Assembly: GCA_949358305.1 (NCBI GenBank)
Contig: OX442314.1
Span: 32,607,608-32,671,607 of the forward strand
Direction of reading: 5' to 3'
DNA length: 64,000 nucleotides
Origin: Strigamia acuminata
Taxonomy: Eukaryota > Arthropoda > Chilopoda > Geophilomorpha > Linotaeniidae
Positions 3,682 to 43,361 of this stretch are shown piece after piece. The position numbers and the translations under genes were made by a program. Within the stretch, counting starts at the first letter, position 1, and each line of letters starts with the position of its first letter. A model generated the notes under the pieces. It saw only the letters and a list, made by a program, of their open reading frames with translations, was not told the origin of the DNA and did no database searches.

Positions 3682-3689
3682 CACTGAAT

Positions 3690-5155
3690 CGCGTACGAGT
3701 TTTTCCCTTTTTCAACGCGAAATCGTATTCGACTCGTTTTCGAGTCGAGTACGAATTTTGCCCTTCTTCAACGCGAAATCGTATTCGACTCGTTTTCGAG
3801 TCGAGTACGAATTTTGCCCTTCTTCAACGCGAAATCGTATTCGACTCGTTTTCGAGTCGAATGCGAATTTTGTCCTTCTTCAACGCGAAATCGTATTCGA
3901 CTCGTTTTCGAGTCGAATGCGAATTCGTATTCGACTCGTTTTCGAGTCGAATGCGAATTTTGCCCTTCTTCAACGCGAAATCGTATTCGACTCGTTTTCG
4001 AGTCGAATGCGAATTCGTATTCGACTCGTTTTCGAGTCGAATGCGAATTTTGCCCTTCTTCAACGCGAAATCGTATTCGACTCGTTTTCGAGTCGAATGC
4101 GAATTTTGCCCTTCTTCAACGCGAAATCGTATTCGACTCGTTTTCGAGTCGAGTACGAGTTTTGCCCTTCTTCAACGCGAAATCGTATTCGACTCGTTTT
4201 CGAGTCGAATGCGAATTTTGCCCTTCTTCAACGCGAAATCGTATTCGACTCGTTTTCGAGTCGAATGCGAATTTTGTCCTTCTTCAACGCGAAATCGTAT
4301 TCGACTCGTTTTCGAGTCGAGTACGAATTTTGCCCTTCTTCAACGCGAAATCGTATTCGACTCGTTTTCGAGTCGAATGCGAATTTTGTCCTTCTTCAAC
4401 GCGAAATCGTATTCGACTCGTTATCGAGTCGAATGCGAATTCGTATTCGACTCGTTTTCGAGTCGAATGCGAATTTTGCCCTTCTTCAACGCGAAATCGT
4501 ATTCGACTCGTTTTCGAGTCGAATGCGAATTCGTATTCGACTCGTTTTCGAGTCGAATGGGAATTTTGCCCTTCTTCAACGCGAAATCGTATTCGACTCG
4601 TTTTCGAGTCGAATGCGAATTCGTATTCGACTCGTTTTCGAGTCGAATGCGAATTTTGCCCTTCTTCAACGCGAAATCGTATTCGACTCGTTTTCGAGTC
4701 GAATGCGAATTTTGCCCTTCTTCAACGCGAAATCGTATTCGACTCGTTTTCGAGTCGAGTACGAGTTTTGCCCTTCTTCAACGCGAAATCGTATTCGACT
4801 CATTTTCGAGTCGAATGCGAATTTTGCCCTTCTTCAACGCGAAATCGTATTCGACTCGTTTTCGAGTCGAGTACGAGTTTTGCCCTTCTTCAACGCGAAA
4901 TCGTATTCGACTCGTTTTCGAGTCGAGTACGAGTTTTGCCCTTCTTCAACGCGAAATCGTATTCGACTCGTTTTCGAGTCGAATGCGAATTTTGCCCTTC
5001 TTCAACGCGAAATCGTATTCGACTCGTTTTCGAGTCGAGTACGAGTTTTGCCCTTCTTCAACGCGAAATCGTATTCGACTCGTTTTCGAGTCGAGTACGA
5101 GTTTTGCCCTTCTTCAACGCGAAATCGTATTCGATTCGCTTTCGAATCGTATACG
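3690..5155. repeat. 56-bp satellite array, forward orientation
   Basis: About 27 tandem copies of a 56-bp unit containing ATTCGACTCG-TTTT-CGAGTCGAAT (a 10-bp stem with a 4-base loop) followed by TTTTGCCCTTCTTCAACGCG. Several copies lack the 22-bp TTGCCC...AAAT part and become 34 bp (for example 3920-3953). Because 56 is not a multiple of 3 and the unit has no stop codon, all three forward frames stay open, which produces very long spurious ORFs. Confidence 0.95.
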
Positions 5156-5218
5156 AGATGGTCGATTTTTGTTTCCCGGACTTTGATTCGTATTCGAGTT
5201 GTTACGAGTTCGTATTTT

Positions 5219-6489
5219 GATCGTATTCGTATTCGAATCGAATTCGAATCGTATTCGAATCGAATACGAATCGAATTCGAGTCGTATTCGAGATGGTCGA
5301 TGATTTCCACTCGCTCGTATACGCGTTGTATACGAGCTCGTATTTTGATCGTAATCGTAAACGAATCGTTTACAAGTCGTATACAAGTTGTATACGACGT
5401 GTATACACCTCGTATACGAACGAAGTTTGTGAAAACACAATTTCCAAATAAGACGTATGTGACTACTATGTGTTTTCATGTCGTAGTAAGTATCCGGTGG
5501 ATTTTCCAAACTTCGTTCGTATACGAGGTGTATACACGTCGTATACAACTTGTATACGACTTGTAAACGATTCGTTTACGATTACGATCAAAATACGAGC
5601 TCGTATACAACGCGTATACGAGCGAGTGGAAATCATCGACCATCTCGAATGCGACTCGAATACGATTCGAATACATCTCGAATACATCTCGAATACGAGT
5701 CGTACGAGTCAAAGTCCGGGAACGGGTCATCGTATTCGAGTTGTTACGAGTTCGTATTTTGATCGTATTCGTATTCGAATCGAATTCGAATCGTATTCGA
5801 ATCGAATACGAATCGAATTCGAGTCGTATTCGAGATGGTCGATGATTTCCACTCGCTCGTATACGCGTTGTATACGAGCTCGTATTTTGATCGTAATCGT
5901 AAACGAATCGTTTACAAGTCGTATACAAGTTGTATACGACGTGTATACACCTCGTATACGAACGAAGTTTGTGAAAACACAATTTCCAAATAAGACGTAT
6001 GTGACTACTATGTGTTTTCATGTCGTAGTAAGTATCCGGTGGATTTTCCAAACTTCGTTCGTATACGAGGTGTATACACGTCGTATACAACTTGTATACG
6101 ACTTGTAAACGATTCGTTTACGATTACGATCAAAATACGAGCTCGTATACAACGCGTATACGAGCGAGTGGAAATCATCGACCATCTCGAATGCGACTCG
6201 AATACGATTCGAATACATCTCGAATACATCTCGAATACGAGTCGTACGAGTCAAAGTCCGGGAACGGGTCATCGTATTCGAGTTGTTACGAGTTCGTATT
6301 TTGATCGTATTCGTATTCGAATCGAATTCGAATCGTATTCGAATCGAATACGAATCGAATTCGAGTCGTATTCGAGATGGTCGATGATTTCCACTCGCTC
6401 GTATACGCGTTGTATACGAGCTCGTATTTTGATCGTAATCGTAAACGAATCGTTTACAAGTCGTATACAAGTTGTATACGACGTGTATA
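5219..6489. repeat. 542-bp palindromic tandem repeats (copies 1, 2 and the left part of 3)
   Basis: The word starting GATCGTATTCGTATTCG occurs at 5219, 5761 and 6303, so the period is exactly 542 bp. Each unit is a near-perfect inverted repeat: arms of about 200 bp built of GTATACGA/TCGTATAC words run outward from a non-palindromic core (AATTTCCAAATAAGACGTAT and onward). The third unit stops at 6489 and continues at 18961. Confidence 0.93.
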
Positions 6490-6529
6490 CCCAGGTAGCA
6501 CAGATGATCGAATCTACATAGAATCTATA

Positions 6530-7095
6530 CAGACCGCTCTGTGTTGAATCTGCATAGACCTGTTGATGTAGATTCGATGTTAAATCTATGTCAATGTTCT
6601 ATCCCAATTTAATTTAACATAGATTTAACATAGACTGCTCTATGTTGAATCAACATAGAGCGATTGATGTTGAATCTGTGTAGACCGCTCTGTGTTGAAT
6701 CTGCATAGACCTGTTGATATAGATTCGATGTTAAATCTATGTCAATGTTCTATCCCAATTTAATTTAACATAGATTTAACATAGACTGCTCTATGTTGAA
6801 TCAACATAGAGCGATTGATGTTGAATTAACATAGAAGGCCCTGTGTTGAATCTATGTAGACCGTTAATGTAGATGTGATGCTAAATCTACGTCACTGTTC
6901 TATCCCAAAATAAATTTAACATAGATTTAACATAGACCGCTCTATGTTGAATCAACATAGACCGATTTATGTTGAATTAACATAGACCGCTCTGTGTTGA
7001 ATCGGTGTAGACCGTTAATGTCGATGCTATGCTAAATCTATGTCATAATTCTATCCCAATTTAATTTTAACATGGATTTAACATTTGTTGAATCA
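6530..7095. repeat. Left subterminal repeats of the 12.5-kb element
   Basis: Period about 151 bp at first (AGACCGCTCT at 6531 and 6682), then degenerate. The array is built from TTTAACATAGA, TGTTGAATC and ATAGA words that are themselves often inverted (CTATGTTGAATCAACATAG). Related words occupy the right end at 18370-18945. Confidence 0.85.
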
Positions 7096-18960: not shown

Positions 18961-19366
18961 CACCTCGTATACGAACGAAGTTTGTGAAAACACAATTTCC
19001 AAATAAGACGTATGTGACTACTATGTGTTTTCATGTCGTAGTAAGTATCCGGTGGATTTTCCAAACTTCGTTCGTATACGAGGTGTATACACGTCGTATA
19101 CAACTTGTATACGACTTGTAAACGATTCGTTTACGATTACGATCAAAATACGAGCTCGTATACAACGCGTATACGAGCGAGTGGAAATCATCGACCATCT
19201 CGAATGCGACTCGAATACGATTCGAATACATCTCGAATACATCTCGAATACGAGTCGTACGAGTCAAAGTCCGGGAACGGGTCATCGTATTCGAGTTGTT
19301 ACGAGTTCGTATTTTGATCGTATTCGTATTCGAATCGAATTCGAATCGTATTCGAATCGAATACGA
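18961..19366. repeat. Rest of the split 542-bp repeat plus flank
   Basis: Continues the unit interrupted at 6489: 18961-19315 supplies the missing 355 bp and a new unit begins at 19316 (GATCGTATTCG). It passes directly into the inverted 56-bp array. Confidence 0.92.
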
Positions 19367-19905
19367 ATCGAACTCGTACTCGACTCGAAAACGAGTCGAA
19401 TACGATTTCGCGTTGAAGAAGGGCAAAACTCGTACTCGACTCGAAAACGAGTCGAATACGATTTCGCGTTGAAGAAGGACAAAATTCGCATTCGACTCGA
19501 AAACGAGTCGAATACGAATTCGCGTTGAAGAAGGGCAAAATTCGCATTCGACTCGAAAACGAGTCGAATACGATTTCGCGTTGAAGAAGGGCAAAACTCG
19601 TACTCGACTCGAAAACGAGTCGAATACGATTTCGCGTTGAAGAAGGGCAAAATTCGCATTCGACTCGAAAACGAGTCGAATACGATTTCGCGTTGAAGAA
19701 GGGCAAAACTCGTACTCGACTAGAAAACGAGTCGAATACGATTTCTCGTTGAAGAAGGGCAAAACTCGTACTCGACTAGAAAACGAGTCGAATACGATTT
19801 CGCGTTGAAGAAGGGCAAAATTCGCATTCGACTCGAAAACGAGTCGAATACGATTTCGCGTTGAAGAAGGGCAAAATTCGTACTCGACTAGAAAGCGAGT
19901 CGAAT
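19367..19905. repeat. 56-bp satellite array, inverted orientation
   Basis: Roughly nine to ten copies of the same unit as 3690-5155 but on the opposite strand (TCGACTCGAAAACGAGTCGA then CGCGTTGAAGAAGGGC). Several copies share a CTAGAAA variant not seen on the left, so this arm has evolved separately. Confidence 0.93.
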
Positions 19906-19947
19906 ACGAGATCATTTTTTGATCTGGGTCGTGAATGCGTCCGTATG

Positions 19948-35730: not shown

Positions 35731-35738
35731 TGTTCAAC

Positions 35739-35967
35739 GGCGAGGAGGAATATTTTCGACCCGGATTCTTTGCGACCGGGATTCTTTTCGACTCGAGGTA
35801 AAGTGCGCTTTTTTTCGACTGGGATTATTTTCGACCAGGAAAATTTTCGACCAGGAAAATTTTCGACTAGGAATTTTTTCGACTCAAACAGGATAATTTT
35901 CGACCAGGAAAATTTTCGACCAGGATTCATCTCGACCAGGATTTTTTTCGACCGGACATTTTTCGAC
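35739..35967. repeat. Left terminal minisatellite of the 6.9-kb element
   Basis: About a dozen units of 14-18 bp built on TTTTCGACC(A/G)GGA, for example ATTTTCGACCAGGAAA repeated around 35830-35920. Confidence 0.9.
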
Positions 35968-36226
35968 TTCACCAATGGTTGGGGGTTTATATACCCCAAA
36001 TAATGTCACGCATTATATAACTGACGATGTCAGTATACAATACGTGACGATGACACGTATTGCATACATGACAGGAGTAATGTGTATTGTTCAATCCAAC
36101 ACTATATTTTTTAATGGAAATTGCTGGAATTGTGTTTCTTGAATAAGCATTTTTTAGAAGCAAATAATCTACTTTTGCAGCCTTCTTTATAGCATTTACT
36201 CACTAAAAGTTTATTTCTAATTGCAG

Positions 36227-36412
36227 ATTGTATTGTGCAATCCGATCTGTTTAATCGGTTACACTATCGCATCATGGAATTTCTTTAACGAGCGGATACA
36301 CGAAGAAGAATTCATTCTTTTAAATTTTTTTGGTCAAGATTACGTGAAATATCAGAAGAACGTGCCTACTGGATTATCTTTTATATCGGGATTCAGGGTA
36401 GAGTACCAATAA
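36227..36412 (+). pseudogene. ICMT (isoprenylcysteine methyltransferase) last exon, orphan
   Basis: After the acceptor TTTCTAATTGCAG (ends 36226) 61 codons read IVLCNPICLIGYTIASWNFF, then ERIHEEEFILLNFFG, YVKYQKNVPTGLSFISGFRV, stop TAA 36410-36412, with AATAAA signals around 36453. This matches the C-terminus of isoprenylcysteine O-methyltransferase, the ER-membrane enzyme that methylates prenylated CAAX proteins; the RI-EE-LL-FFG-Y-Y and TGLPFI-like blocks include cofactor- and substrate-site residues. No upstream exon is present in the element, so this is a captured terminal exon. The exon itself is undamaged. Confidence 0.8.
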
Positions 36413-36424
36413 GCGGACAAAAAT

Positions 36425-37810
36425 CTTTATTTTCAATTCAATTTTTTTTTTTAATAAACAAACAAATAAATAAAAACTGTGTAAATTAATTTCAAACTTT
36501 AATTTCATCATTGGAGTCGCAAACAAGCAGAATCAAACCTATTTTTCTACTTTTTCTTTCGACAAATGAAAAAACATCGGATTCGATTAAATTCGTGTGA
36601 AAATGCTTTTATTTCTCATTATTATAAAATTAAACTACTGTAAAATATTCTAAAAACAGTGCTGCCACAAGGCAGATGTAATTTACAAAATAATGTACAA
36701 AAATATTTTTTTTCCATTGACATTTACATTTTTCTAAATAAATAAAGAGCACCACTAATAATAAAATTAAAAATGTTCTATAGCTGCTAAATAAACTAAG
36801 TTTGTTTAGATCGACAATATCAAAAATATAATGTGTTGTTTTTTCTTTTTGATATTGCTAATAAACGTTGTGATACGATGCTGTGAATATTACAGGATAA
36901 TACTTGTTTTTTTTTTTTTTATACGGATGGGATTCGTAGGATTCGGATAGATTCTGGGGATTCGGATGGGATTCGGAGGGGATTCGATGGGACTTGGAAA
37001 GATGCATATTATCATCACATCATTATCTTTAAAACTGAATAATAAATATGAAATTTACCGGCAGTTTTGATCAAGTTATGTAATAAAACACTCCAAAATT
37101 CAGAAATTAACACGAAAGCAAAACCTAATTCCAGCCAATAGTAAACAATATTAAAAATACAAAAAATAAACCAAAGATATTGCTAAATTTTAATAACTGT
37201 TATGCTGGGGCATCACGTTGAAATAAAGGAGAGGTTTTTAAAGTGGAAAACAAAACACACGTCTTTACTCGTGGGTAAAATACAAGCAAGTGAGGAGTAA
37301 TACAAAATTGTCATGGTAACGCTTTTACAACAATGTAACAGTATGATATAGCAATAACACGTTCTTCAACAATGAACTCAACATTACATTAACATAACTT
37401 AACAATAACCAAAGTTAAAAAATTAAATTAAAAGCGAGGGGCGCAGGTGGGTGCAGGTCAAGCGCGCACGTGAGCGCGCAGGTCAAGGCGAGTGAAAAAT
37501 TCGACGGAAAATTTGAGGGAAAATTCAATTACCGAGTCATTTAGACTTGTCAATTATTCCAGTTTTGGAAAACAAAATTATTATATTGTCTCTTGAATTA
37601 GTGACTTTTTTGATTTCTATTCAAAATTCAAATTTTAAAAGAAAAAAATATTTCCAGAAAATTAAAATTAAATTAAATTAAAATTAAATTAAATTTAATT
37701 AATTTAAATCCCACGAAATGCATGTTTGAAACAGAAACTTGATAAAGTTTACCACCAAAAACTTTTTCAACAACTTCCATAAAATGAAAATAAAACAACA
37801 AATGAAACAG
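36425..37810. other. AT-rich spacer with a short minisatellite
   Basis: A GGATTCGGATGGGATTCG-type repeat occupies about 36920-37000. The rest is AT-rich with AAATTAAATT runs near 37660-37700. No gene is supported. Confidence 0.5.
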
Positions 37811-37954
37811 GTGTAAATCAGCTGAATGAAGACCTCTTTATCAGGTCACATCAAGGCCTGGGTTATTATGAGGAAGTGAGAAGCCTTGGAATCAAACATC
37901 ATGACATATTCATGGCAGTGCATTTAACCAAAAAATCATTTATCAAACATACCG
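37811..37954 (+). pseudogene. Isolated exon-like ORF, unidentified
   Basis: Between an AAACAG acceptor and a G/GTAATG donor the frame reads NQLNEDLFIRSHQGLGYYEE and then GIKHHDIFMAVHLTKKSFI. The composition is protein-like and both splice borders are plausible, but I cannot name a family. It could be another captured host exon of the 6.9-kb element. Confidence 0.35.
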
Positions 37955-38268
37955 GTAATGTGGAATTAAACTTTTAAGAAAAAAAAAATCTTTTTATAAT
38001 TTGTCTCATCACCTTTATGCCACAGGAAAAAAGCTAATTTCATGGTTATGTGCCCCAAGTAAAGCGAGGAACGTCGTATCTTTCTTTCTTTCTCTCTTTC
38101 TTTTATATTTTCCATTTATTTTTCTTGCATTTCCCTTCAAACACCTGTCGGGTTGACTTTGCCTAAAGGAGACTGGTGTCTCTTTACTGAATATTGGAGG
38201 AGGAACACCTGCTGCCATTTATATCACACCTCTCAAGGGTAAAGACACTTCCGGCCCCTCTTCACACA

Positions 38269-38284
38269 GGTCACACACACACAC

Positions 38285-38336
<52 letters not shown>
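38269..38336. repeat. (CA)n microsatellite
   Basis: CA dinucleotides for about 68 bp with two CCC interruptions. Confidence 0.97.
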
Positions 38337-38338
<2 letters not shown>

Positions 38339-38817
38339 TAAACTCTCCGACTTGCGCCACAAATTGAATTGTCAAAGTTTCATGTTTCATATTAATTTTT
38401 TTGAAGAATATTCGTCCTAGGAGTCATAAATTTCTGTGATTTTATTAGATTCACACAGGTGCAAACATTTCCCCCACCATTCCGCATAATTTCCTATAAT
38501 AGAATTTCCAAATTGGTTTCTAACAAAAAAAAAACTTCTAAACGTCATTTTTATTTGATTTATATTTATGTATTGGAGCATTTTACGCTAATCTGTTTGG
38601 CATTAAAAATTAAAAACGAATTAAAACACCGATAGTTTATTTGCTTCCATTTTGACCACCAAAGTGAATCTCATTTCATGCTCAATAAATTATGCATGGT
38701 TTCTTTTTTTAAACCAATATAAAATAGAATGGTAAAATACTGTTAAAATTTAGCGAAGAATTATCCATCGCTCCGTTGCTTAGCGACCACGTGTTTCGCA
38801 GCGAAGTCGCCCATCGG

Positions 38818-38907
38818 AATAATTTGACGCGCTATCTTTGAAATTGTTGGAAAACATGCGAAAAAACATTGTTTTCCAACAATTTCAAAGACAGCGCGTC
38901 AAATTAT
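38818..38907. repeat. Near-perfect 90-bp hairpin
   Basis: AATAATTTGACGCGCTATCT... returns as its reverse complement (...AGACAGCGCGTCAAATTATT) with about 40-bp arms, one mismatch and a loop of about 10 bases. It could be a tiny palindromic MITE or a small-RNA hairpin precursor. Confidence 0.8.
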
Positions 38908-38909
38908 TG

Positions 38910-39771
38910 TTTTCAAAACAATATCACCTTCGTTAAAATCTGATTATTTGATGAAATAAGACTTATTTTACTTGCAAAAACTTATACATTAATTTATTGC
39001 CGTTTGTATTTGCCGTTATACAGAAGAAAATAACTGCACCAGAGCGAATAAATATTACATGTTTTTTTTAAGTACGGATCGACTTCCATTTAGCCACAAA
39101 ATGCATTAAAGTTTTCGATCCAAAGTGCTCCGACTTACTAATTCTTGCAATTCCTCGCAAAAAACTTTATTTTATTTTAATTAAACTAGAATTAGCTATT
39201 TCACCGTGTCGCCATCTATCGCCAGAATAAAAAGCTCAAAAACGAGCTCGAAATTCAAATTTAGTAAACTATAATTTACTACAAACGGTTATAAAACAAC
39301 GAGGAAAAATATTATGCTCTCTCCTGAGACTAAATTGGGCTAAATATTGCATGGTTTTATTCATTTGATTTAATTTAATTGTCGTCTGCACCGACGATTT
39401 TTCAATTTGCCCCTGACCTCTCCATTTTGCACTTGCATTTTTGCTAATTTCAAACATTTTTTTCCTCTGATTGAGCCACAAAAGTAAATGTCATTCCTTG
39501 TAAGAACACACAACTTGAGTTTGATGTGTTTTTTGAGTTGTGCAATGCACCCAAGCCTTTCTGTGCCCCCTAAGTTTTGTGTTTTCTTCACTGAAAAACA
39601 AAGGGGTGAAAAATGGGTCAAAGTCACTGGCTAAATGTAGGGTGAGTGACCGAGTGACGCGATAAGAATTGGAGAGGAGTGCCAATCACGTGCCAAACCT
39701 TGGACCAAGGCCAAACATCATAAGTGAGAGAGCGACATTGCTAAAACCCGTGTACCTGTGTAAAATTGACA
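38910..39771. other. Spacer and AAR2 upstream sequence
   Basis: AT-rich with no supported ORF. The last few hundred bases may be the promoter that was captured along with AAR2. Confidence 0.4.
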
Positions 39772-41084
39772 ATGGCTTCACAAGATATGGATCCTGATGT
39801 TGCAAAGACTTTATTTCGCGAAGGTGTGACATTAATATTTTTAGATGTACCACCAAAAACTGAATTTGGAATAGATCACAATACTTAGAATGTGGAAACC
39901 GATATCAAAGGTGTCAAGATGATTCCTCTGGGCATTCATTTTGTATATTACAGGTAATTTCGAGGTTAAAAATTTGGATTTGGATTTTGCAATGACTAAT
40001 GACCACAATTTATTTTCTTTATTTCAGTGCAGTTAGTCGGGACAACCAAATGGCACCCAGAACTGGATTTTTTCATTAATTCAATAAAGGAGAAATAGTT
40101 GTTACAAAATGGGATAAATATCTCGAAGGTTATTTTAATTAACGTTTAAATTGGTCTGTAACCTGAATTGTGTATCGTTCAATATAGATATCAAAGATGA
40201 AGTCACTTCAGATGAAGAAATAGACAGGCTTAAAGAGAATTTAAGGGAGCTTGACAAACATTTAGGCGCTTATCCATACGACAACTGGAAAAAATGGATT
40301 TTCCAGACCTACTACATGACTGGTAAGGAAAAAAATTTCGTATTTTGTAAAATATTTTATACAAAACTTATTCTCTTAGACACAGTTTTAGAACGGGTGC
40401 AGCCATTAAACAAAAAAATTTCGTCAGTTTCCCATTTAATAACTGATGAGAGTGAATCGTCAACAAGAACAAATAAGAGACCAAAACTAGATGATTTTCT
40501 TCCGAAAATGTGTCAAAAACCCGGAACGGAAATTCGTTTTTCCAAATTTCCTGAAAAAAGTAAGAAGAAAAAAAAGACAATTTTGATTTTAAAAAAGTAA
40601 CTTAAATGTTTTGTGAAATCACAAAACAGTTTAGATTTGACCTATACTTTAGATCAAATGCTCAAATCGTATACAGATCCTGAAGACATTCTCGGAGAAC
40701 TTCAAATGGCTTTTATTTGTTTTATTTTAGGACAGGTGTACGACGCATTTGAAGAATGGAAACATTTAATCCACTTGCTGTGCTCGTGCGACAATGCTCT
40801 TACGAAATACGCAGATTTATATTCAAAATTCATTTTTGTACTTCATCACCAACTTCAGGAAATTCCTCGCGATTTCTTTGTAGATATTGTCAGTCGTGAA
40901 AACTTCCTCGTCAACACATTGCATTCTTTCTTCTCCAATTTGAACGGGAACCAACAAGTACCGCACGAAATTGTAGAAAAGGGTAGAAGGTTTAAAAAAA
41001 TATTTAACGAAAACATTCAAGTGGGATTTTGATAGGGAAGATGATGATGAAGCGCCTGTTGTTGTTGAAACTGAAGAAATGTGA
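39772..41084 (+). pseudogene. AAR2 splicing factor gene copy, multiply broken
   Basis: Exons: 39772-39953, 40028-40138, 40188-40322, 40380-40559 and about 40615-41084, with introns of 74, 49 and 57 bp and consistent phases. Translated segments MDPDVAKTLF, FLDVPPKTEFGIDHN, GVKMIPLGIHFVYY, LRELDKHLGAYPYDNWKKWI, KPGTEIRFSKFPEK, DPEDILGELQMAFICFILGQ, EIPRDFFVDIVSRENFL and the end APVVVETEEM follow AAR2 from end to end (384 aa in man). AAR2 is the U5 snRNP assembly factor that holds Prp8 before Brr2 joins. Damage: TAG in place of a conserved Trp (near 39888), TAA after GFFH (near 40079), a frame change near 40620 (EITK / SLDLTY) and another near 41015 before WDFDRE. AATAAA follows at about 41093. 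Introns are retained, so it is not a processed copy. Confidence 0.85.
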
Positions 41085-41334
41085 TTCGTGTGAATAAATA
41101 AAAATATTTGGTCAAAGTAATTTTTTTTGGAATTTTTTATTTATTAATAAAAATGATGACATTGCAATTCGATTGACGAGTTTCAAAATTATCAACATCC
41201 GAAGTTAAACTCTAAACCTTCAAAGAAATTTCATTAAAAATCATGCTAATTAGACATTTTCTTTAATTATTTCACTTTATTTACAACATCGTCTGCAATT
41301 TAACCCGTAGTTTTTCTACTTTTGTCTGCTGCAA

Positions 41335-42310
41335 TCAATGAATTCGATGGATCCTAATTAATCCTGAATTTTCACCCGAAGCCACTAATAAATGCGATCC
41401 GAAGTTTGGACTCCAAGCCACCTGAAATTAGGATTAAAATTAGATTAAAATTAGATTAAAATAATATTAATTTTTAATCTCCACTCACTTTATTAATGGA
41501 TGCAATTTCAAACGAACGAAGATCAGATGAGGTCATTGTATTTGCGTGAGTTAATCGCGTAATTTCGTCCTGGGGTATTAAATTATTTGATATCTAATAA
41601 AAAATACAATTAAAATGCATGAAATCGCTAAGAAGTAATAGAATACTCGAGAGGTAACAGAAGTAAATAAACTAAAGTACCATAAAATATTCATTTACTT
41701 CCACCAATTCAATAAAACGAGTCTCTAGATTTTTACCGGTACGTTATCCATAAAAACTATTCCGTAATCCGTGACCGCGTCTCTTTATAAGACTCAGATG
41801 TCTTCTCTGGCGTTCGTTTGGCTGGATCGCAAGAATCGGCCGTCGATTGATCACTTCGAACATCTTGAGCTGAATTATCTGCTGAATTTTTCGACGAATT
41901 TGTCTCTATTTTGTCACCCAGATCGGACTCTAGCGTCTTTAGATTGCAAACATTTGTTCTATAAATTGGCTGCAATTAAAAAAAATATACATTTTAATTT
42001 CAATCAATATTAACTAGAAATATATTCCTTACGAATCGTTTTCTCGATATCCTTTTCTAATTACCAACGCCGTGCAGAAGTTGGGTCAAAACTGTGCCCA
42101 CTACTTCACCATTCGAATCGCAAGTAGCCGTACAATTTAGCCAATCATTAACGGACACTTGCTACAAAGAAAAAATGTAAACATAAATTTCAATAATAAT
42201 TTAACAAGTAAGGATAAAATTACCCAAATGGAGCAGTTATGTGCTGCTATACATCACGAGCCATTACCGAAATAGCCCTTCTCCACAAACCTTAGATTCG
42301 TTCGCCATAA
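41335..42310 (-). pseudogene. TFIIIC (GTF3C2-like) WD-repeat gene fragment
   Basis: Last exons on the minus strand: 41593-41489 (ISNNLIPQDEITRLTHANTM) and 41421-41335 (VAWSPNFGSHLLVASGENSG, stop TGA), joined by GTGAGT...CAG in phase 0. Upstream pieces: near 42000-41700, DYGIVFMDN and NLETRFIELVEVNEY in two different frames; near 42160, VNDWLNCTATCDSNGEVVG; near 42300, more in other frames. The W-SPN...LVASG-N-GLIR ending is a WD-repeat, and the run of motifs recalls the 110-kDa subunit of TFIIIC (GTF3C2), needed for RNA polymerase III genes. The identification is tentative. Frame changes show it is inactive. It is tail-to-tail with AAR2 only 250 bp apart. Confidence 0.5.
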
Positions 42311-42414
42311 ACTAAAAACAAAATTTTGGTTCAAATATGTACCGATGAAAGAAAATATAAAAATGAATAAATTTGACACGTTACAAGTCCATTTATAAAA
42401 GTAAACTACCTAAA

Positions 42415-42666
42415 TTTCGACCAAGTCGAAAGGAATCCTGGTCGAAGTGAATCCCGGTCGAGATAAATCCTGGTCGCAAAGAATCCTAGTCGATAAAATT
42501 CCAGGTCGCAATCCAACCGGTCGAAAAGAATCCTGGTCGCAAACAATCCTGATCGGAAACAATCCTGGTCGCAAACAATCCGGTCGAGAAAAATCCGGTC
42601 GCAAAAAATCCGGTCGAAAAAAAACGCGGTCGAAAGGAATCCGAGTCGAAAATATTCTACCCTGCC
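42415..42666. repeat. Right terminal minisatellite of the 6.9-kb element
   Basis: Units such as GGTCGAAAAGAATCCT and GGTCGCAAACAATCCT, the reverse complement of the left-end unit, ending in the inverted terminus CTACCCTGCC. Confidence 0.9.
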
Positions 42667-43361
42667 TGTTCAACCTTTCAACTCGAGTTTCATCGTTCAT
42701 TTATCGATACGAATAGTTTCTGCCAAAATCGATCAAAATATGTTGAGTTATTAAATCAGAAGTGAGTAGTGGGTGCATGCAAAAACTCTAAAATGCCTCT
42801 AAAACTCGTTTTGTGTTTATCAACGGTTATTATCAAAAATTTGTGTGTACAAAAAGCTAGTGTTTTCCCGGGTTTATTTAAACCAAAAGAACCGTAAAGA
42901 AAAAGGGAGTGTTCAGAATTGTTTTATTTCTTCTGCAGATATCAAGAAATTAACTACAAAATATCCGATTTTGGAGCGTTTTTATTAGAGTTTAACAATT
43001 TCTTCGCCAGATGGCAACAGTGGGCTGCATAAAAGCATGGCGGCGGCGACATCGGCGTGAGCAACTGGCGAAAACGGTAAATATTGTATCAAAGCAGCTT
43101 AAAATGGATCGAACATTTTGTTAAATAGTGATATGAGTTATTATTTCGATAGACCTTAGCTGCATATCGTACATTTCGTGTCTCTGGTTTATACAACTAG
43201 TTAAAATGCTCCAGTTTGAACGTGTGCTGAAGCTGATTACTCGGGTAAGTACAAAATTGACCCGAACATCTAGAATTTTCGTATTCTGTGATGTTCGTGT
43301 AAAACCGTTTTTTTTAGCAGTGCCGTGGTTATTTCAACTTAAGTACTGACTTGAAAAATAC

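Follow-up and report, generated by a model that had tools for sequence, protein, structure and literature searches.

How did pieces of three host genes come to lie together, with their introns, inside a single 6.9-kb unit of a centipede genome? The unit lies in the window, the whole stretch of 64,000 nucleotides that was analysed (C1:32607608-32671607), and it was compared with an assembly of 237.5 Mb. The initial annotation had read it as a non-autonomous Mutator/foldback-like transposon with three captured genes; this reading is supported by the donors, by the target-site duplications and by a relative with a MULE transposase. The crustacean host that had been supposed is not supported. The host is most probably a geophilomorph centipede, since the full-length protein of the donor AAR2 gene shares 91% identity with its counterpart in Strigamia maritima, a member of that group; its next match stands at 63% and the next named one at 55%.

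Table 1. Coordinates (window positions) of the element, its ends and its cargo.
Feature	Position	Strand	Remarks
8-bp target-site duplication, left	35731..35738	.	TGTTCAAC
Whole non-autonomous element, 6,928 bp	35739..42666	+	Outer 12 bases of both ends constant across 14 copies, apart from a single terminal base of L011; flanking sequences not the same
5' terminal inverted repeat (16-bp minisatellite units)	35739..35967	+	TRF arrays, end alignment
Captured ICMT segment (790 bp)	36135..36924	+	94.9% identity with gaps, 96.7% without; donor C1:11046258-11047052
ICMT last coding exon	36227..36412	+	Open to its own stop; acceptor CAG retained
Stretch of ~207 bp that aligns with both ends of a ~4.9-kb LTR retrotransposon	37198..37407	.
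Captured AAR2, five exons and four introns	39750..41167	+	92.6% identity with gaps, 95.6% without; donor C3:28565782-28567243; pseudogene
Captured GTF3C2 fragment with introns	41163..42324	-	93.0% identity with gaps, 95.9% without; donor C4:12109749-12110917
3' terminal inverted repeat (16-bp minisatellite units)	42425..42666	-	TRF array, end alignment
8-bp target-site duplication, right	42667..42674	.	TGTTCAAC

The borders are as they had been described: the 8-bp duplication is exact, and on re-alignment the outer 40 bases of one end again matched the inverted other end at 33 positions. TRF recovered the terminal 16-bp minisatellite arrays, at 35753-35792 and 35812-35967 on the one side and, in the opposite sense, at 42425-42652 on the other. 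Long inverted ends of short tandem repeats are the hallmark of foldback-like elements, and the 6,928-bp element has them. The window holds a second foldback-like structure (3686-5157 and 19318-19909), with 56-bp minisatellite arrays in inverted orientation, whose arms of 537 nt are 96% complementary, lie 14.2 kb apart and enclose a copia-like frame of 1,722 amino acids.

The unit has transposed repeatedly. We examined 14 copies of it, spread over six contigs, of which 12 are uninterrupted, 6,928 or 6,932 bp long and at most three changes away from the reference copy L017. Five other copies are identical to this reference, four carry a single base difference, and two base changes plus a 4-bp deletion are common to L013 and the window copy; the remaining two copies (L015+L016 and L022) are interrupted by other sequence. 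A perfect 8-bp duplication flanks 10 of the 14, no two of the ten being alike, and in L022 seven of the eight positions match. At the borders of three near-identical copies among the 14 (L010, L011 and L014) no target-site duplication was found, which counts against the transposon reading. As a reason for this we considered exchange between copies and compared the flanking 8-mers by eye; no pair matched. Searches of the genome with the termini yielded at least 22 places with 96% identity or more to the outer 5' end, and the 3' end likewise recurs, the counts being lower bounds. A 22-base end pattern gave 103 genomic matches with at most two mismatches (49 forward and 54 reverse, some of them internal minisatellite units and not ends) and its reversed control none, so this recurrence is not due to chance. 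Termini and 8-bp duplications thus do recur around other insertions, and they do so around longer relatives of the element as well. The near identity of the copies points to a very recent amplification of the 6.9-kb element. Pfam scans of the reading frames that cross the joined insertion sites of L012, L017 and L018 detected no family.

The three captured segments occupy positions 397-1186 (ICMT), 4012-5429 (AAR2) and 5425-6586, reversed (GTF3C2), of the element, a second alignment of the last extending it to window position 42336. Their gap-free identity to the donors is 95.6-96.7%, and the donors lie on three different contigs (C1, C3 and C4), so that the captured genes are unlinked, as had been claimed. 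The gene identities also held: the spliced donor readings match the solved structures of ICMT (8.1e-74), AAR2 (2e-109) and General transcription factor 3C polypeptide 2 (4.2e-39), and AAR2 is indeed nearly whole, with five exons and four introns. For ICMT, said to be represented by its last exon, the gene and the exon were right, and the exon is only part of a 790-bp segment with non-coding flanks. The retained introns and the nearly whole AAR2 are also what would be seen if a region holding all three genes had undergone segmental duplication. However, the three genes are not neighbours elsewhere, their donors being on three contigs, and the copies have exact common ends and, in 10 of 14, different 8-bp duplications; we therefore regard a segmental duplication as having almost no chance of being correct.

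Introns are collinear between the captured copies and their donors, which argues that the capture took place at the DNA level; retroposition as the capture route was ruled out by the same retained introns. AAR2 and GTF3C2 are joined directly, and the alignment places at the join a TG that is common to both donors. The interval between ICMT and AAR2 is made up of the LTR-like stretch plus further sequence. This stretch has paired genomic matches about 4.66 kb apart and is covered by the full-length alignment of every one of the 14 copies; it is probably a solo LTR that was nested in the unit before the amplification. In the donor stretches that we fetched, reaching 0.9 to 4.3 kb to each side, the element ends were sought and none was found. 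The unit thus has the make-up of a Pack-MULE: fragments of host genes lie between MULE ends, the unit has no transposase of its own, and its donors, in the stretches fetched, adjoin no such ends and are not retrocopies.

The captured AAR2 is a pseudogene: it has two stops and frame-breaking indels, and it has lost codons and a splice acceptor. Most of the cargo is probably devoid of protein function. The cargo could nonetheless be put to use, with the last exon of ICMT serving as a 3' exon trap or with antisense or small RNAs from the cargo acting on the donor genes. That the ICMT exon is open to its stop and retains its acceptor, and that many near-identical copies of donor-like sequence exist, would suit such a use; the two stops, the indels and the lost acceptor of AAR2 speak against it, as do its codon changes relative to the donor (18 silent and 20 replacement), and we hold such a use to be unlikely.

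Ten longer or older relatives of the element were fetched, and ends were sought in nine of them. Exact 8-bp duplications flank four: C4 (16,649 bp), C11 (11,621 bp), C12b (13,720 bp) and C12a (17,011 bp). The duplications of C5 and C1big can be read as 8 to 10 bp. No duplication was found in three of the nine, C3b (sequence incomplete), C8big and L044 (end positions uncertain), nor at a second, shorter pairing of ends within C12b; the three relatives without a duplication are a further point against the transposon reading. The C4 relative, flanked by CATTGCAC, is the longer relative with a Mutator transposase that had been predicted: in Pfam scans it was found to encode a FLYWCH domain (7.9e-6), a MULE transposase domain (PF10551, 1.5e-10) and a RING domain (5.4e-7, L026:6896-7522), and a second RING-like frame was recognised by eye. 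In the transposase reading D198, D260, C281-H284 and E378 (query numbering), which we take to be the catalytic positions, are invariant with respect to two database homologues, one of which (P0001) also has a RING. The FLYWCH exon of the C4 relative has a single full-length match, which is itself, among 4 matches, and this too weighs against the main reading. Of 169 genomic candidates for the MULE domain 150 were scored, giving at least 118 matches to PF10551, none of which falls inside the 6,928-bp element. Separately, MULE-domain frames of 1,083 amino acids occur at nine genomic places with nearly equal scores, which suggests another recently active MULE family.

The right end of the C4 relative is identical to the 5' end of the element at 131 of 132 positions, while its left end matches this 5' end at only 74 of 132 (ungapped) and the 3' end of the element at about 78% over 241 columns. 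The poor match at the second end counts against mobilisation of the element by this relative, and the shared end does not prove that a C4-type protein acted in trans.

Target-site duplications in the Mutator (MULE) superfamily measure about 8-11 bp, and the hAT and KDZ types also make 8-bp duplications. Could the element then belong to another superfamily of this kind, with foldback ends that merely resemble those of Mutator elements and with the MULE gene of the 16.6-kb relative a nested foreign insertion? Its duplications are of 8 bp, whereas many Mutator elements typically make 9-11 bp, and the transposase sits in a segment that is absent from the C11, C5 and C3b relatives. However, the break points of the missing segments are not the same in C11 and C5 (C4 4251/14337 and 5218/14221), and short shared sequence lies at the breaks, which reads as separate internal deletions of the transposase and not as one insertion. 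Furthermore, a long inverted repeat enclosing the transposase was sought in the C4 relative and none was found, and, judging from search coordinates, a locus on C13 repeats the arrangement of C4, with an end, a WD-gene fragment and a transposase fragment that agree in order and relative orientation. No hAT domain was detected in 27 Pfam scans of frames or joined frames. The MULE literature likewise describes 8-10 bp duplications, with FLYWCH in some members, for the Phantom clade, 8-bp duplications for the Spectre clade, and a RING in the most complete member of the Ghost clade (PMC6446971). A FLYWCH, an 8-bp duplication and a RING are all present in the C4 relative, which might by these features belong with either Phantom or Ghost; no captured host genes figure in what that source describes of the three clades. 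Another superfamily is consequently, in our judgement, quite improbable. A member of the family with a MULE-type DDE transposase, and duplications within the range of about 8-11 bp, place the element in the Mutator superfamily. We are highly confident that it is a non-autonomous transposon of the Mutator superfamily whose ends are of the foldback (minisatellite) type, in other words an animal Pack-MULE, with a cargo captured at the DNA level and presumably mobilised in trans by a FLYWCH/RING MULE.

The relatives also bear on the order of the captures. A long ICMT match is present in 8 of the 10 and an AAR2 match in 8 of the 10 (E 1e-15), and L044 retains a short AAR2 remnant. Most relatives align to the AAR2 of the element at 78-86%, which might be taken for two independent AAR2 captures; this was set aside, given that gap-free columns differ far less and that a TAA in the captured AAR2, absent from the donor, is common to the element and the C12c relative. 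Across 967 compared AAR2 columns these two agree against the donor at 20, while the element alone differs at 17, C12c alone at 24, and at one column all three differ. The shared TAA points to a single AAR2 capture that predates the split of the element and C12c. Within the family, GTF3C2 was found in the 6.9-kb copies and in an older, interrupted copy on C8; by search coordinates a few partial GTF3C2-like matches occur elsewhere on C3, C4 and C1.

Further host sequence is carried by the relatives. The transposase-bearing C4 unit includes a WD-repeat-like fragment (L027:4620-5830; Pfam support weak, 0.0021), whose likely donor is C3:23426459-23427561; over the first 264 bases the fragment matches C1:11048590-11048850, just past the ICMT donor. 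A frame of 172 amino acids (L026:3554-4069), identical over its first 60 residues in the C4, C11, C5 and C3b relatives, matches a tandem gene family at C8:8.29-8.90 Mb. There the matching pieces are hundreds of bases apart and in the C4 relative they are joined, which suggests that this stretch came from a spliced source. In C4, C11, C12b, C3b and C5, another 65 bp of the ICMT donor locus (L042:2561-2625) adjoin the inner border of the other terminal repeat. More of this locus may therefore have been captured at first, with decay then taking a different course at the two ends. In L044 and C12a (L031, L032) inverted ICMT fragments lie at both ends, as if the captured gene had joined the terminal repeat. 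With ICMT, AAR2, GTF3C2, the WD-repeat-like gene and the exon-joined copy from the C8 tandem family, we see about even chances that this MULE family is a continuing gene-gathering system like plant Pack-MULEs, whose members, with and without transposase, take up pieces of at least five host loci, rearrange these pieces and multiply certain combinations.

We propose that the three unlinked genes would have been copied into a MULE as DNA with their introns retained, probably through template switches made while the element was being repaired or replicated, the route that Tan et al. proposed for multicopy Pack-TIRs (PMC8277862). ICMT and AAR2 would have entered an ancestor common to the element and the transposase-bearing relatives, and GTF3C2, seen within the family only in the 6.9-kb subfamily, would have been placed immediately next to AAR2. 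Once complete, the 6.93-kb unit would have been mobilised in trans by a FLYWCH/RING-type MULE transposase recognising the common outer end, producing insertions with 8-bp duplications in a very recent amplification.

The initial annotation knew of no described crustacean case; precedents from other animals are in print. A 2021 survey of 100 animal genomes reports 370 Pack-TIRs of other superfamilies and, in its reference genomes, no Pack-MULE, and it presents Ssk-FB4 of Drosophila melanogaster as a Pack-MULE in flies (PMC8277862); a further precedent is Turmoil-1 of Caenorhabditis elegans (PMC2572040). Beyond these cited precedents, no animal Pack-MULE was found among the literature matches listed. 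As described in that survey, Ssk-FB4 is also foldback/MULE-like, multicopy, with distinct duplications, and carries a host gene; it differs in having a single donor gene, in occupying three polymorphic loci with one more copy in tandem, in its duplications of 9-10 bp and in having no known transposase, whereas here there are three donors, 14 copies of one unit and a MULE transposase in a relative. What sets the present case apart from the fly precedent is the larger number of copies, the three donors, and a transposase-bearing relative that itself has captured genes. Turmoil-1 is a DNA transposon whose inverted repeats contain fragments of host genes, two in number, but it is of the Harbinger superfamily, to which 3-bp duplications are ascribed, and is described from one full-length copy and eight fragments (PMC2572040). 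Tm1 of Meloidogyne resembles our element in foldback-like ends of ~14-bp tandem repeats, a Phantom-like transposase in the family and a gene, Cg-1, within one member; by its description it differs in duplications of 8-10 bp, mostly 9, and in predicted genes whose translations are not similar to known proteins (PMC3169594). Plant Pack-MULEs are likewise non-autonomous Mutator elements with unlinked host gene fragments, and in rice a third are reported as multicopy with distinct duplications (PMC8277862, PMC6446971); unlike them, the present family has an animal host, minisatellite foldback ends and transposase-bearing relatives that also hold captured genes.

In plants, Mutator elements often capture genes and are known to give rise to new gene structures in this way; in animals such capture has very rarely been documented. 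In this centipede a single genome contains the donors, the amplified product and relatives that carry two of the three genes. Such a young, multicopy, three-donor case, accompanied by a candidate transposase in the same genome, opens the mechanism of capture to study in an animal.
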